Both the position numbers and the translations under genes were made by a program. Below are positions 56,096 through 63,143 of a stretch of 64,000 nt of DNA, in pieces. The stretch spans positions 186,001-250,000 of the forward strand of contig JACOEK010000002.1 of the NCBI GenBank assembly GCA_024998595.1, given 5' to 3'. Below the pieces are notes generated by a model. That model was not told the DNA's origin and ran no database searches. It saw only the letters and a program-made list of their open reading frames with translations. How positions within the stretch are numbered: position 1 is the first letter of the stretch; each line of letters starts with the position of its first letter. The DNA comes from Nitrospira sp. (lineage in GTDB: Bacteria > Nitrospirota > Nitrospiria > Nitrospirales > Nitrospiraceae).

Positions 56096-58852
56096 ATGCA
56101 ACGTATTCGTCCCCGCCACATGCCGCCCTTACGGGATGAGGGCCCCGATGCGGCGCACACCATTCTGAGTGATGGAACCACGGCCGTCCTCCGGACTGCC
56201 CAACCGGCCGATACCGATGAACTGCAGCGCTTCTTCGCGCGCCTGACGCCGGCGGCGACGCGGCATCGGTTCTTTTCGGAATCAGCCCCTCCCGCCGAGG
56301 TCATTCGTTCGCTGTGCGATGCATCGCATCCGGAACGCAGCCTCACCGTGATCGTGCTCCGTCGGCATGACGATACCCTACGTATCATCGCATCGGGCTC
56401 TTACCATGCGCGGACCCCACAGGAGGCCGAAGTGGCGATGGCCGTGGACGAACAGCTCCACGGACATGGTCTCGGCACGATACTCCTGGAACGCCTGGCA
56501 CTGTTGGCGATCCGACAGGGCTTCACAAAACTCTGGGCCATCACCCATGCCGACAATCTGGCCATGCGCGAAGTGTTTGCTACCTCGGGCTTTACCATGG
56601 AAGAACATGTCGAGGGTGGCGACATGGAAGTCGAGTTGTCTCTGACACCGACGGATCAGAGCGTGCGACAATCCGAATGGCGTGAACGTGTCGCCACCAT
56701 CGCCTCTCTGCATCCTCTGTTTCATCCACGCGCCGTGGCCGTGATCGGCGCCTCACGCGAGCCCAAGAGTATCGGATACCGGTTACTCGAAGCGCTCCAT
56801 GCCAACCGGTTTGAAGGCCCCTGTTATGCCGTCAATCCCCATGTCCCTCTCATCGCGGGGGTCGCCGCGTATCCCTCTGTGCGCCACCTGCCGGAGCCGG
56901 TCGATCTCGCGGTTATCGCCGTCCCCAAAGAAGCCGTGCTGTCGGTGGTGGACGATTGCGCCGCCATCGGAGTTCGCGCGCTGGTAGTCATCACGGCGGG
57001 GTTTGCGGAAGTTGGGGAGGAAGGGCGGCGGTTACAGGACCAGTTGCTCGAGGAAGTCCGGCAACATGGCATGCGGATGGTGGGCCCCAACTGCTTCGGC
57101 ATTCTGAATACCGATCCGGCCGTGCGTTTGAACGCAACGTTCACGTCCACTTTTCCGCGCACCGGATCGATCGCCATGTCATCGCAAAGCGGCGCCCTGG
57201 GCCTCGCTCTGGTGGCGGCCTCCAATCGATTGCACCTGGGGCTTTCCACCTTCGTCAGCGTCGGCAACAAGGCCGATGTCTCCGTCAATGATCTTCTGCA
57301 GTACTGGGAAAGCGACTCCGCCACGAACGTGATCCTGCTCTATGTCGAATCGTTCGGTAACCCCAGGCGATTTGCACAGATCGCCCGGCGGGTCAGCCGT
57401 AACAAACCGATCGTCGTCCTCAAAGCAGGTCGAACCTCATCAGGCAAACGAGCCGCAGGGTCCCACACTGCCGCGCTGGCCGCCAATGATGTGGCGGTGG
57501 AGGCCCTCTTTCAACAGACCGGCATCCTGCGCGCCGACACGCTGGAAGAAATGTTTGCCCTGGCCACCGGCCTCTCCGAACAACCGTTGCCGAAGGGGCG
57601 ACGCGTCGGCATCCTCACCAACGCGGGCGGACCCGCCATCCTCTGCGCGGATGCCTGTGAAGCGGCCGGCCTCGAGGTGCCGGAATTGTCACAGGCCACG
57701 GTCACCCGACTCTCGCCGTTTCTTCCCGCCTCCGCTTCGCTGCACAACCCGGTTGACTTGATCGCCTCGGCCACCCCGGAGCAATACGAACAGGCGATCG
57801 TCACACTGCTCACGTCCGATGACATCGATGCCCTTATCATTTTATACATCGCCGTGACAGCGACCGACGTCCATCCTATCGCCGAAGGCATTACGCGAGG
57901 TATTGAGGCGGCACGGACGCAGCAGCTGACCAGCAAACCCGTCTCGATCGGGTGGATGGTGGAAACGGATCGTGATCGCACATTTTCGCTCCCTCATGAA
58001 ACCATTCCCACCTATAGCCTGCCCGAGCTCCCCGCGCGCGTCTTGGGCAAAATCGCCGGATACGTTCAGTGGCGCGATCGCCCGCTCGGCATGGTACCGG
58101 ACTTCGATGATCTGGACATACCCGCCGTCACAACCGTCTGTCGTAACGCCCTCGCCACACGTGGAAGCGGATGGTTAACGGTCGCGGAGACACGCGCGGT
58201 GCTGTCCGCTCTGGCGATGACGTTGCCGCCCGGCGGCCTGGCGACCACCTCCGAGGAAGCTGCCACGCTTGCCGCACAAATCGGATTTCCAGTCGCCGTC
58301 AAACTGGCCTCCCATACCCTGGTGCATAAAAGCGAGATCGGCGGCGTGCATTTGAACCTTTCCAGCAAAGCCGAAGTCCGTCGCGCCTACGACGACATCG
58401 CCGCGCGAATCGCTCATGATCACACCCTTGACGCCATGGAAGGGGTGCTGGTTCAGTCGATGGTCGCAGGCGGGGTCGAAGTAATGGCCGGCATGGTCCA
58501 GGATCCCTCGTTCGGCCCCTTGATCGGATTCGGGCTCGGCGGAATACACGTCGAAATTCTCGGCGACGTGCGCTTCAGAATCACGCCGTTGACGGAGCTG
58601 GACGCCGCCGATCTGATTCGCAGCATCAAGGGCTATCGCCTGCTGCAGGGGTATCGCGGCCATCCGCCGGGCGACGTCGATGCCATTCAAGAACTTCTTC
58701 TAAGGCTCTCGCGGTTGGTCGAAGAGGTGCCGGAAATTGTCGAGCTTGATCTGAACCCGATCTTTGCCCTGCCGCCAGGCCAAGGCTGTCGCATCGTGGA
58801 TGCACGGATGCGGGTCGACAAGCCCTTCGTTCGCCCCGCGCCGTGGCAATAA
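56096..58852 (+). CDS. GNAT fused to ADP-forming acyl-CoA ligase (Pat/AcdAB type)
   Basis: A 918-residue protein. Residues about 30-190 are a GNAT acetyltransferase (acetyl-CoA motif HGHGLGTILLERLALLA). Then come a CoA-binding Rossmann domain (AVIGASREPKSIGYRLLEAL), a ligase domain with KAAGSHTAALA-like AGRTSSGKRAAGSHTAAL, whose His is the phosphorylatable residue of NDP-forming ligases, and a C-terminal ATP-grasp (PVAVKLASHTLVHKSEIGG). It resembles protein acetyltransferase Pat, but with the GNAT at the N-terminus rather than the C-terminus as in enteric PatZ. It probably makes acyl-CoA or acetylates proteins. Starts at 56096 and 56120 are both possible. Confidence 0.85.
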   Translation: MQRIRPRHMPPLRDEGPDAAHTILSDGTTAVLRTAQPADTDELQRFFARLTPAATRHRFFSESAPPAEVIRSLCDASHPERSLTVIVLRRHDDTLRIIASGSYHARTPQEAEVAMAVDEQLHGHGLGTILLERLALLAIRQGFTKLWAITHADNLAMREVFATSGFTMEEHVEGGDMEVELSLTPTDQSVRQSEWRERVATIASLHPLFHPRAVAVIGASREPKSIGYRLLEALHANRFEGPCYAVNPHVPLIAGVAAYPSVRHLPEPVDLAVIAVPKEAVLSVVDDCAAIGVRALVVITAGFAEVGEEGRRLQDQLLEEVRQHGMRMVGPNCFGILNTDPAVRLNATFTSTFPRTGSIAMSSQSGALGLALVAASNRLHLGLSTFVSVGNKADVSVNDLLQYWESDSATNVILLYVESFGNPRRFAQIARRVSRNKPIVVLKAGRTSSGKRAAGSHTAALAANDVAVEALFQQTGILRADTLEEMFALATGLSEQPLPKGRRVGILTNAGGPAILCADACEAAGLEVPELSQATVTRLSPFLPASASLHNPVDLIASATPEQYEQAIVTLLTSDDIDALIILYIAVTATDVHPIAEGITRGIEAARTQQLTSKPVSIGWMVETDRDRTFSLPHETIPTYSLPELPARVLGKIAGYVQWRDRPLGMVPDFDDLDIPAVTTVCRNALATRGSGWLTVAETRAVLSALAMTLPPGGLATTSEEAATLAAQIGFPVAVKLASHTLVHKSEIGGVHLNLSSKAEVRRAYDDIAARIAHDHTLDAMEGVLVQSMVAGGVEVMAGMVQDPSFGPLIGFGLGGIHVEILGDVRFRITPLTELDAADLIRSIKGYRLLQGYRGHPPGDVDAIQELLLRLSRLVEEVPEIVELDLNPIFALPPGQGCRIVDARMRVDKPFVRPAPWQ

Positions 58853-59997: not shown

Positions 59998-60549
59998 TCA
60001 GTGTCCTGTCCTATGACAGGCTAGGCATTCCGCCATGCTGCCCCGCTGGTGTGCGCCTCGCCCTTGTTCATACAGCCGCCGCACGATCGACACATCTCTC
60101 AGAGTGAAATTGGTCACGACCCTCGCCCCGATCTCGTGACAGGCGGTGCAGGAACTGGCCCCCGTGGCGCGAAACACCAGGTCGCCGTGAGGATTCATTT
60201 TTGTCTCCTCGGTAATACGCGCAGAGGCCCCACGATGTTCCGTATGGCACCCGGTACAAGCTGTCTGTTGTGTGACCAGATCGCGGTGCCAAGTCGCACT
60301 TGCAGGCGTCGCACGATTCTCGAAAGACTCTTCTGAATGGCATCCTATGCAGCGGGCGGCGGTCGGTCCTTGAAACGGCTCGTGGCAAGACGTACAGCCG
60401 GCTTTATCGACATGGTAGCGACTCAGATCGCCCGGCGCCCAAAACGAAGCGGGACTTCTCACTGACCCCCAGCCGATCCACATCACCAGTACCAGCGTCG
60501 CCAACGCAACCACCGGCACCGAAGTTTTTGGCAGCGGGTGGTAGCGCAT
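59998..60549 (-). CDS. Membrane-anchored pentahaem cytochrome c
   Basis: A 183-residue protein with an N-terminal anchor (VALATLVLVMWIGWG) and five CxxCH sites: C52-H56, C67-H71, C98-H102, C134-H138 and C175-H179. NPHGDLVFRATGA before the fourth haem matches the dihaem cytochrome at 61244 (NPHSDLIFRATGA), so the C-terminal dihaem part is shared. It starts 3 nt after the stop of the membrane cytochrome b gene, indicating tight coupling. It may accept electrons from that membrane protein in the periplasm. Confidence 0.92.
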   Translation of the reverse strand: MRYHPLPKTSVPVVALATLVLVMWIGWGSVRSPASFWAPGDLSRYHVDKAGCTSCHEPFQGPTAARCIGCHSEESFENRATPASATWHRDLVTQQTACTGCHTEHRGASARITEETKMNPHGDLVFRATGASSCTACHEIGARVVTNFTLRDVSIVRRLYEQGRGAHQRGSMAECLACHRTGH

Positions 60550-60552
60550 GAC

Positions 60553-61140
60553 TCACGACATTCCCGCAAAGAACAACGCCCCCACCACATGCAGTACGGT
60601 GAAGACAAGGAACATCAGCGTCATCGGCGCATGAATCGCCTGCCACACACGGAACCCTTCTTCCTGAGAGGCCACCCCGTGTAACTGCGCTTCGATGTCG
60701 TCATCGGACAGGCCTTGGTGCTGGAGCTGCCGGCGCTGATCATTGAGTGCTCGCAGACTGAACGCATGCACCAATTGTCCGACGATTCCACTGAGGACCA
60801 CGATGACCATGGACACCATCGCCATGATCGGCACCAGGGCATGATAATGAGCACCGGAGTGGAGAAAGATCAGCAGCGGTCCCAGCACCCCAGCGATCAT
60901 GTGGACACGGAACCAACCGCGCGGCCATCGGTGTGATGGACGAAGGCGTTTGAGAAGGGGATACACACACACCAAGAGGGTCATCAACAGACCCGCCCAG
61001 CCCACGCCATGCCCGTGCTGCGTATGGCCGAAGGGCGTGACCTTGTCGAGACTGAGCAGCGCCTCGAACATCAAAGCGCCCGCCACCGCCGCCACCACGA
61101 CGGCACTGACGACAACCACGCGCTGCCGCACCGATGTCAT
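60553..61140 (-). CDS. Predicted dihaem b-type membrane cytochrome
   Basis: A 195-residue integral membrane protein with about five helices. H80 and H94 in one helix (RVHMIAGVLGPLLIFLHSG) and H170 and H184 in another (WQAIHAPMTLMFLVFTVLH) are each 14 residues apart, the spacing that brackets two b haems in four-helix cytochromes b. A soluble loop with HQGLSDDDIEAQL separates the fourth and fifth helices. It is translationally close to the pentahaem cytochrome (gap 3 nt). A quinone-linked electron exit to the periplasm is the likely role. I do not assign a named family. Confidence 0.75.
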   Translation of the reverse strand: MTSVRQRVVVVSAVVVAAVAGALMFEALLSLDKVTPFGHTQHGHGVGWAGLLMTLLVCVYPLLKRLRPSHRWPRGWFRVHMIAGVLGPLLIFLHSGAHYHALVPIMAMVSMVIVVLSGIVGQLVHAFSLRALNDQRRQLQHQGLSDDDIEAQLHGVASQEEGFRVWQAIHAPMTLMFLVFTVLHVVGALFFAGMS

Positions 61141-61243
61141 ACGTGACCCTCGGTCCTCAGAAGCAGAAGGGCTGATAGCACAGGGCTTCGCGCACCTGAC
61201 TCAGAGCATGACATCATCGGTCATCGGCTATTCGCTCCCTGAC

Positions 61244-61630
61244 TTACTTCCTGTACTTCTCGACTCCCTTGTTGCCCCCGGCATGGCACCGTAAACAATC
61301 CGCGAATCGACCGGGTCCGTGAATGCCCTTCGCCTTGCCCTTGAGTTCTTGGACCAGTGCATTGTCCTGTACCTGCGCTGTGATCTGGCCCTCCTTGCCG
61401 GTGCGATGACAATCCAGGCACTTCGTGGCGCCGGTCGCCCGAAAGATCAAATCACTGTGAGGATTGGGCACCGACCCTCCGCTATCGGCAACCATGAGCA
61501 CGGACAGCGACCATTCTCCCCCCGGTGCCCGGACCCCACGATCAGCCAACGCAGTTGCTCCCTGTAGCACACTCGCAATGACGATTGCGGCCAGCAGACA
61601 ACAGAGCGTCAGCACCCACCGGTGGTTCAT
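61244..61630 (-). CDS. Dihaem cytochrome c
   Basis: A 128-residue exported protein with signal peptide (VLTLCCLLAAIVIASVLQGATALA) and two haem sites, CLDCH and CLRCH. The stretch NPHSDLIFRATGATKCLDCH and the second site near KGIHGPGRFADCLRCH mirror the last two haems of the pentahaem protein. The start ATG overlaps the hemerythrin gene stop by 4 nt (ATGA). It likely exchanges electrons with the b/pentahaem pair 103 nt downstream. Confidence 0.92.
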   Translation of the reverse strand: MNHRWVLTLCCLLAAIVIASVLQGATALADRGVRAPGGEWSLSVLMVADSGGSVPNPHSDLIFRATGATKCLDCHRTGKEGQITAQVQDNALVQELKGKAKGIHGPGRFADCLRCHAGGNKGVEKYRK

Positions 61631-62109
61631 GCGTGCCCGCTCCCGCAACAGGTTCGATACCGTTCTTCAGGAATGTCCTTCATGGCTTGGTACAACTCCG
61701 CCCGTTCACCATCGCTGATCACCTGATCGATCGAGGGGTAGAGAATCCGCTCTTCCTTCATGTTGTGCGACTTCAGCACGTCTAGCAGCCGCTGTTCTTC
61801 CAGATCGCTCTCGGGATTCTTCGCCTGCACCTTTTGATGAATCGCCTCCAGGCAATCGCCGATGATCCGATGTTCGGTCCGCATGACCTGGGTCGGCCCT
61901 CCCTCCGCCATGCCGGAGTTTTCCTCCCACTTGGGAAACAATACGTCCTCCTCCCACACGATGTGGCGCTGGAGTCCGAATTTAAATTCCACGAACGCCG
62001 CGGCAGCTTTCGTAAAGTCTGCTCGCTTCTGCTGTTGGAACGAGGTGAACAGCGCATCGAGCCGGTCGTGATCCTGCTCGAACGTGACACTGATCTTCGC
62101 ATCGGACAT
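61627..62109 (-). CDS. Hemerythrin-like HHE-domain protein
   Basis: A 160-residue four-helix protein. H14 (QDHDRL), H49 (QRHIVWEEDVLFP), H80 (RTEHRIIG) and H115 (SHNMKEERILYP), with E53 and E119/E120, fit a di-iron hemerythrin site. There is no signal peptide, so it is cytoplasmic; O2 or NO sensing or iron handling is possible. Two Cys near the C-terminus (CCGSGHA) could add a metal or redox site. It is embedded between cytochrome genes in one operon, overlapping the dihaem gene. Confidence 0.88.
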   Translation of the reverse strand: MSDAKISVTFEQDHDRLDALFTSFQQQKRADFTKAAAAFVEFKFGLQRHIVWEEDVLFPKWEENSGMAEGGPTQVMRTEHRIIGDCLEAIHQKVQAKNPESDLEEQRLLDVLKSHNMKEERILYPSIDQVISDGERAELYQAMKDIPEERYRTCCGSGHA

Positions 62110-62123
62110 GCCGTTCTCCTTGA

Positions 62124-62585
62124 TTAAGACCTGTCGAGCCTATATTCCAAATGACAGGCGACACAAGCTCTCAGCACATTGTTGAACTCGGGCAGAATCC
62201 GCTTCAGATCTTTTGTGGGCATGACATCGGCCAACTTCTGGGCAGCCGCATGATGCGCCATCGCGAGATCGTGATAGGCCGGCGGAAAATCGGCCGGTTC
62301 CTGCCGCGCCATGGCGTACCGATGCATAAAGAATCCCACATGTGACTCCGTCAGCCCCTGCGCCAATCGATAATCTTCCTCGGCCAACGCCGCGACAATC
62401 GACTGAATCGTTTCCAGATGCTGGAACATCACGGCGCGATGTTCCTGACGGGCCTCGCTTCCCAACGAAATGGGCGTACGCACATCTGGCAGATGCACCG
62501 GCCTGCCCCCGCTGCCGGGTGCGGACGTCTGTTCCGCGCAGCCGTTCGCAACGAGGACCGCGAACAAGAGTAGCGGAATGATCAT
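62124..62585 (-). CDS. Cytochrome c-prime-like lipoprotein
   Basis: A 153-residue predicted lipoprotein with lipobox LVANGC (Cys 16). The body is helical (a four-helix bundle pattern with HRAVMFQHLETIQSIVAALA), and the haem motif CVACH lies at residues 141-145, near the C-terminus as in cytochrome c-prime. Such proteins bind NO or CO and can lack a sixth ligand. The ATG at 62585 was chosen for its signal peptide; an upstream ATG at 62621 sits directly on the AGGAGG and is too close. It precedes the hemerythrin gene by 14 nt. Confidence 0.78.
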   Translation of the reverse strand: MIIPLLLFAVLVANGCAEQTSAPGSGGRPVHLPDVRTPISLGSEARQEHRAVMFQHLETIQSIVAALAEEDYRLAQGLTESHVGFFMHRYAMARQEPADFPPAYHDLAMAHHAAAQKLADVMPTKDLKRILPEFNNVLRACVACHLEYRLDRS

Positions 62586-62626
62586 GTGTCTACCCGCGTT
62601 GCCCGTGACATCGCAGGGCATACCTC

Positions 62627-62935
62627 CTAGGCTCGATCCGCCTTTTCCTTCTTGAAGGCTTCTTTTCCTGCCGCCAACGCAGCGGCGATCGTCGCTTCGG
62701 TTTCCTTCAGGTACCGTTTGGCCTCCTCCATGGTTTGCGAAATGTCCGCGCGGATTTCTTTGGCTTTTTCCAACACATCCTCTTCCGTCCGCCGCGCATA
62801 CCCTTTAATCGCTCGACGGGTTTCCTCGCCGGAACTGGGGGCATAGAGGATGGCGGCCATCGCGCCCAGCATCGCCCCGCTGACAAACGCGATCGACACG
62901 CCCAGTCCCGAACAATTGTGATCGTGATCCGCCAT
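62627..62935 (-). CDS. YtxH-domain protein
   Basis: A 102-residue protein with the N-terminal glycine-zipper helix GVSIAFVSGAMLGAMAAILYAP, followed by SSGEETRRAI and a long charged helix (EEDVLEKAKEIRADISQTMEEAKR). This is the YtxH pattern, a small stress-associated membrane protein. A His/Asp-rich start (ADHDHNCSG) may bind metal. GGAAGGAGACGGC precedes the ATG at 62935. Its role in the cytochrome operon is unclear. Confidence 0.83.
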   Translation of the reverse strand: MADHDHNCSGLGVSIAFVSGAMLGAMAAILYAPSSGEETRRAIKGYARRTEEDVLEKAKEIRADISQTMEEAKRYLKETEATIAAALAAGKEAFKKEKADRA

Positions 62936-63143
62936 GATGCCGTCTCCTTCCGACTGTATGTGTGATGGTCCTTGGCCTGCCTCAGAAACAATCTGGCCCC
63001 TGAGAAAGCAGAGGGCGTGCCAGGAGACCGTGGCGAGGGAGCGACGAAGCCACAATTTTGACTAGGGTTTTACGGTATCGACCAGATAGGCTGCTGAGCA
63101 GCATTTCCATTTGGGGAATTACAGAACCGGGCGAAGGCCGATA

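Follow-up and report, generated by a model that had tools for sequence, protein, structure and literature searches.

A probably sigma-54-driven operon of Nitrospira encoding a predicted dihaem b protein, a pentahaem cytochrome c and a RIC-like hemerythrin

A short run of genes in a Nitrospira genome raises the question of what a small membrane haem protein, its multihaem partner and a hemerythrin have to do with one another. No other nitrite oxidisers are as widespread as Nitrospira (PMC8115632). The window analysed here is the whole 64,000-nucleotide stretch taken from contig JACOEK010000002.1 of a Nitrospira sp.; in its interval 59998-62935 lie six minus-strand genes, transcribed in the order ytxH, c'-type lipoprotein, hemerythrin, c2 (dihaem c), b and c5 (pentahaem c) (Table 1). 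A preliminary description of this DNA had placed six such features on one strand, a layout that is confirmed, and had suggested that they form a quinol-linked route that senses or detoxifies O2 or NO.

Only 3 nt separate b from c5, as in almost all loci of the genus. The c2 gene probably starts at the ATG at 61630, where it shares 4 nt (ATGA) with the hemerythrin stop; most same-genus loci show this overlap too. A scan of the operon strand found no terminator-like site between c2 and b. The c' frame is open from 62621, with the ATG at 62585 as its likely start, and the ATG of ytxH at 62935 is preceded by a conserved Shine-Dalgarno-like stretch. Convergent with the operon, an ADP-forming acyl-CoA synthetase with a GNAT domain is encoded at 56096-58852 and is often nearby in relatives. 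Beyond the window, at 67211-72899 in window numbering (G000:C9; L062:13212-18900), reading of the sequences indicates a sulphite-oxidase-like molybdoenzyme, several cytochromes c and a Rieske/cytochrome b pair.

Table 1. Genes and predicted upstream elements of the operon, in window coordinates
Feature	Coordinates	Strand	Description
c5	59998..60549	-	pentahaem c cytochrome, membrane-anchored N-terminally; class III-like trihaem part plus C-terminal dihaem domain
b	60553..61140	-	five-helix dihaem b protein (predicted), His80/94/170/184
c2	61244..61630	-	exported dihaem c protein; paralogue of the c5 C-terminal domain
hemerythrin	61627..62109	-	cytoplasmic hemerythrin-domain protein; RIC-like ligand set, conserved C-terminal CC
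c'	62124..62585	-	class II cytochrome lipoprotein; single CxxCH near the C-terminus
ytxH	62627..62935	-	YtxH-like small membrane protein, first gene of the operon; PF12732 3.4e-13
predicted sigma-54 promoter	63007..63022	-	TGGCACG-N4-CTGCT (GG-N10-GC), ~73 nt before ytxH
conserved block AGTCAAAATTGTGGCTT	63047..63063	-	island in alignment of 21 upstream regions; possible activator site, upstream of the promoter
conserved block CCGGTTCTGTAATTCCCCA	63112..63130	-	near-invariant in 21 upstream regions; possible activator site, upstream of the promoter

Alignment of the regions before ytxH gives conserved islands amid variable surroundings, and it was by this alignment that the predicted sigma-54 site was found. 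Its sequence, TGGCACG-CCCT-CTGCT, agrees almost perfectly with the TGGCACG-N4-TTGC consensus and with GG-N10-GC, and TGGCACGNNNTNTGCT has a single exact match in the genome, which is this site. Same-genus loci with ytxH score 12/12; loci of other genera mostly score 11/12, at 42-47 nt. Among random 250-nt windows, 0.5% reach 12/12 and 1.3% at least 11. No site was found in the ytxH upstream regions of two loci, L156 (whose region may be cut short) and L189, and that of L182 scores only 10/12. A sigma-70 scan gave nothing on the operon strand. An FNR/NNR-type palindrome was rejected, its three one-mismatch matches in the whole window being at chance level and none of them near the operon. The pattern suggests that the operon is probably driven by sigma-54. 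In distant lineages a gene for a sigma-54 activator lies beside or near b-c5, and the sensor part of its product keeps a CxxC and a third Cys; in Nitrospira the distance to the operon is 50-60 kb. A full-length relative of this activator lies ~50 kb from the operon in the window genome, and it is our guess that it controls the operon. Sensing, if there is any, would more likely sit in a sigma-54 activator. Activators with a PAS-like sensor part that carries CxxC and a further Cys are found at G000:C9:298183-299538 (L196), L090:9913-11328 and L056:14850-16262.

The b protein has 195 residues and five hydrophobic segments, with His80 and His94 in one segment and His170 and His184 in another, 14 residues apart in both pairs. 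Because 17% of shuffles of the protein yield at least two His pairs at +14, the spacing by itself is not beyond chance, and conservation is what counts. Among homologues with identities as low as 20%, H80, H94 and H170 are present in 40 of 40, and H184 in all 39 that cover its position. The preliminary description had staked its dihaem b protein, with 14-residue His spacing in two helices and a pentahaem c partner, on the conservation of these residues; the conservation, together with the gene pairing described below, supports it. In the topology predicted from positive-inside charge the H80 and H170 ends are cytoplasmic and the H94 and H184 ends periplasmic. Both His-bearing helices would then run the same way, so that H80/H170 could bind a haem on one side of the membrane and H94/H184 another on the opposite side. 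The four His would thus fit two haems b, one near each membrane side.

No Pfam or NCBIfam family takes the b protein above its cut-off. Against PF01292 (prokaryotic cytochrome b561 and Ni-hydrogenase cytochrome b), which likewise describes small membrane dihaem b proteins, it shows weak similarity, 20.0 bits, below the gathering cut-off of 30.1, and it differs from them in pairing its His within single helices, on two helices. Within-helix pairs 14 apart on two helices are the pattern of b6 and NOX proteins. The b protein shares with the ferric reductase/NOX proteins two helices that each carry a His pair 13-14 apart (H80/H94 and H170/H184) but, at 195 residues and by Pfam, lacks their fused FAD/NAD(P)H dehydrogenase domain. 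A PDB sequence search with b returned no match and a PDB search with a 40-row b profile only one, at chance level; Foldseek gave no E-value below 0.001 with either b model. The AlphaFold (AF2) model (pLDDT 84, pTM 0.75) is a helical b-type bundle. Its predicted four-helix fold resembles E. coli CybB, b6 and SpNOX with Z from 9.4 to 8.7, which is not discriminating; the nearest haem proteins, these three and b561, are all tied, and since the matches are tied helical bundles the fold match is not used for family assignment.

The c5 protein has five CxxCH motifs and scores above cut-off for PF02085 and PF14537. Its candidate distal ligands, His46, 88, 105, 121 and 167, are conserved at 0.90-1.00 in 49 relatives, and in c2 both CxxCH motifs and the candidate distal H64 and H110 are invariant in 26 relatives. 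Residues 62-126 of c2 share 41.5% identity with the C-terminal part of c5; judged by this comparison, c2 repeats the C-terminal dihaem domain of c5 as a separate protein, a duplication from which one would expect it to serve as the soluble partner. Since each of the five haems of c5 and of the two of c2 has a conserved candidate distal His, no catalytic site is obviously left open, and a role in electron transfer is favoured over one in catalysis. Alternative complex III was considered as an identity for the pair and rejected: its pentahaem subunit is absent from the PDB matches of c5, and no ActB- or ActC-like genes were seen beside c5.

Of the 28 other same-genus genomes, 25 have the b gene, and among named public records the closest that have it come from Nitrospira, one of them being the N. 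defluvii chromosome FP929003.1, in which the genes lie at ~3.840-3.846 Mb. Where a b locus extends past the gene, b is almost always followed by a multihaem c gene (5 to ~30 haems), so that b and c make a true unit, and the synteny in Nitrospirota that had been proposed as a check is upheld. Most Nitrospiraceae have a five-haem partner, other Nitrospirota one with 7-12 haems and a branch with long b proteins one with 21-30; in one proteobacterial locus (L102) crude gene calls put no multihaem c directly beside b. Homologues of b with a multihaem c also occur on proteobacterial contigs with large multihaem clusters. The b protein with its multihaem c partner marks a family that neither Pfam nor NCBIfam names above cut-off, and that is repeatedly found next to very large multihaem cytochromes. 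At L104:7671-13163, L101, L133 and L134, on proteobacterial and Nitrospirota contigs, long b homologues have cytochromes with 21 to 34 haems as neighbours, and these loci are possibly electron-export clusters. At L135:4378-8045, L140 and L141 the b gene follows that of a membrane-anchored FAD/NAD/2Fe-2S protein (recognised by profile in L135 and by sequence similarity in the others) and is accompanied by a heptahaem c, a possible NADH -> b -> c chain; such relatives may therefore draw electrons from NADH and not from quinol.

The nearest functional analogues are CbcBA and CbcL of Geobacter sulfurreducens, inner-membrane bc-type cytochromes that pass electrons from menaquinol to periplasmic c cytochromes (PMC12307469). 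The likeness of b-c5 to these is one of presumed function and of gene pairing, a b gene lying together with that of a multihaem c protein, not of sequence comparison; in contrast to them, b-c5 has a pentahaem c partner, and its operon contains a hemerythrin, c', a dihaem c and, in relatives, a pyruvate-type ferredoxin oxidoreductase (POR). By analogy with CbcL and CbcBA (PMC12307469) the direction of flow would most likely be quinol -> b -> c5 -> c2.

The b/c pair might be a general conduit for periplasmic or extracellular electron export, with hemerythrin, c' and YtxH as linked neighbours in separate stress roles. Single parts of the operon are missing in different lineages. For such a conduit speak the distant lineages L090, L093 and L097, in which b-c5 stands without a recognised hemerythrin or c' alongside, the hemerythrin without b in G007, G011, G014 and G030, and the b homologues in loci with 21-34-haem proteins. 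Among 118 genomes of the family hemerythrin occurs in 89, POR in 42 and b in only 41, so the b-hemerythrin link is not obligatory. Against mere neighbourhood, b and hemerythrin lie within 5 kb of each other in 35 of the 37 family genomes (7 genera) that hold both, a count that, like others within one family, is not made of independent cases and is inflated by shared ancestry. The order of the genes is reshuffled across relatives and the set retained, the hemerythrin and c2 genes overlap, and the conserved promoter is shared. We regard the export conduit with incidental neighbours as rather unlikely; the cluster shared with dihaem c, hemerythrin and c', as it had been described beforehand, holds.

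The hemerythrin matches PF01814 (3.4e-18), the only Pfam domain found in the protein, and has no signal peptide. H14, H49, E53, H80, H115 and E119 are invariant in 30 relatives, in which the C-terminal C154/C155 is also conserved at 97%. The ligands follow the pattern H, H-x3-E, H, H-x3-E of RIC proteins (YtfE/DnrN/ScdA) as H14, H49/E53, H80 and H115/E119. RIC proteins have a diiron ligand set of this kind and a conserved DfCCgG motif in the N-terminal domain (PMC9268430), and two reports describe them as donors of iron to Fe-S clusters (PMC3989283, PMC8117158). The best NCBIfam matches of the operon protein are RICs, at 44 bits against an equivalog cut-off of 204.7. Because its CCG motif is at the C-terminus, whereas that of RICs is N-terminal, because Pfam finds no ScdA_N domain in it and because its score is far below the cut-off, we call it RIC-like in its ligands and not a RIC by score. 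The C-terminal CCG (window 61627-61660) is similar to the CC motif that RICs have in their N-terminal domain, but lies at the opposite end of the protein. The c' protein, at 27.9 bits just above the PF01322 gathering cut-off of 26.5, has the C-terminal CxxCH of class II; its lipobox Cys and its CxxCH are each 96% conserved. It differs from cytochrome c' in being a lipoprotein, in a match limited to the last helix region and in extra invariant His. Six or more His outside the CxxCH (62124-62585; H61, H68, H94, H100, H123, H124) are nearly invariant and are possibly a second metal site.

Both c' and hemerythrin domains are NO/O2-binding folds, and both genes are near b in several genera, which might suggest a direct detoxification chain in which quinol feeds b-c5 and NO or O2 is reduced at c'. 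Such a chain is decidedly improbable. No catalytic site is seen, every c5 and c2 haem having its candidate distal His, and the hemerythrin, with no signal peptide, would lie across the membrane from the c cytochromes; in addition, no NO reductase or oxidase catalytic subunit is recognisable and c' is missing from several b-c5 loci. The same distal His, and the three distant lineages in which b-c5 lacks hemerythrin and c', leave the earlier suggestion of direct O2/NO sensing or detoxification by the b/c pair unsupported. The link to O2 or NO comes instead from the hemerythrin, c' and the POR that relatives carry in the same operon.

In many relatives the operon includes a three-gene POR, the common order being ytxH, POR gamma-delta fusion, POR alpha, POR beta, c', hemerythrin, c2, b, c5. 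This enzyme class is usually O2-labile. N. marina strongly raises a POR, at most a candidate counterpart of the operon POR, at ~5.6 uM O2, and the authors of that study discuss POR protection by superoxide dismutase (PMC8115632). Equating the operon POR with the third N. marina POR, which is reported to be absent from most other Nitrospira (PMC8115632), is not adopted: PORs of ~37% identity coexist with the operon type in G207 and G242. At L038:9777-13017 (N. defluvii) and in L180-L186 the genes encode a three-gene 2-oxoacid:ferredoxin oxidoreductase with a fused gamma-delta subunit, widespread in Nitrospira, and the fused subunit layout of the operon POR also resembles oxalate oxidoreductase. 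Hemerythrin and POR are within 5 kb of each other in 26 of 39 genomes (6 genera), a count subject to the same shared ancestry, and six of those genomes are without b. The window genome joins ytxH directly to c' and has no POR of the operon type, at the locus or elsewhere (E 1e-60). Reverse flow, in which nitrite-reduced periplasmic c cytochromes would feed quinone through b-c5 for CO2 fixation next to the ferredoxin enzyme, would suit the uphill electron flow that nitrite oxidisers need and the POR genes in the operon of relatives, but it is very improbable, with bis-His multihaem c of the c5 type usually low-potential, flow from periplasm to cytoplasmic side opposed by the membrane potential and POR absent from the window genome.

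The reading that we prefer, tentatively and with a confidence that stops a little short of calling it probable, is that b and c5 form a quinol-to-periplasm conduit in a sigma-54 operon for low O2, whose hemerythrin protects or repairs iron-sulphur enzymes. The b protein would place a haem b close to either face of the inner membrane, as its conserved His and predicted topology indicate; electrons, most likely from quinol, would pass through b to the membrane-anchored c5 and from there to soluble c2 and further c cytochromes of the periplasm. Taken together, the operon would most likely serve at low or fluctuating O2, with b-c5-c2 as an outlet for an over-reduced quinone pool, the hemerythrin binding O2 or NO or mending iron-sulphur centres, and c' providing a periplasmic NO/redox haem. 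Membership of one operon need not mean one pathway, since the cytoplasmic hemerythrin and the periplasmic c2, c5 and c' cannot meet. From the same promoter, the wider Nitrospira group would also make a ferredoxin-dependent 2-oxoacid oxidoreductase along with the RIC-like hemerythrin; the window organism retains the protective and electron-transfer part without the POR genes. By comparison with N. marina, a sigma-54 operon with POR, RIC-like hemerythrin and electron outlet fits the need for POR protection at low O2 discussed there. A more specific version is unlikely but worth stating: a sigma-54 operon with a Cys-based redox activator would couple, at low O2, an O2-labile ferredoxin-dependent carboxylating enzyme to a RIC-like hemerythrin and a dihaem b/pentahaem c outlet.

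The gene set is not described in the literature on Nitrospira with hemerythrin, pentaheme or b-type cytochrome that was searched, a scope with subscription papers mostly outside it, and it looks real and new in its combination. Nitrospira also live where O2 is scarce. For work on how their O2-sensitive ferredoxin enzymes of carbon fixation are guarded, and on where surplus quinol electrons go, the locus provides a defined set of genes together with a predicted promoter and a candidate activator.
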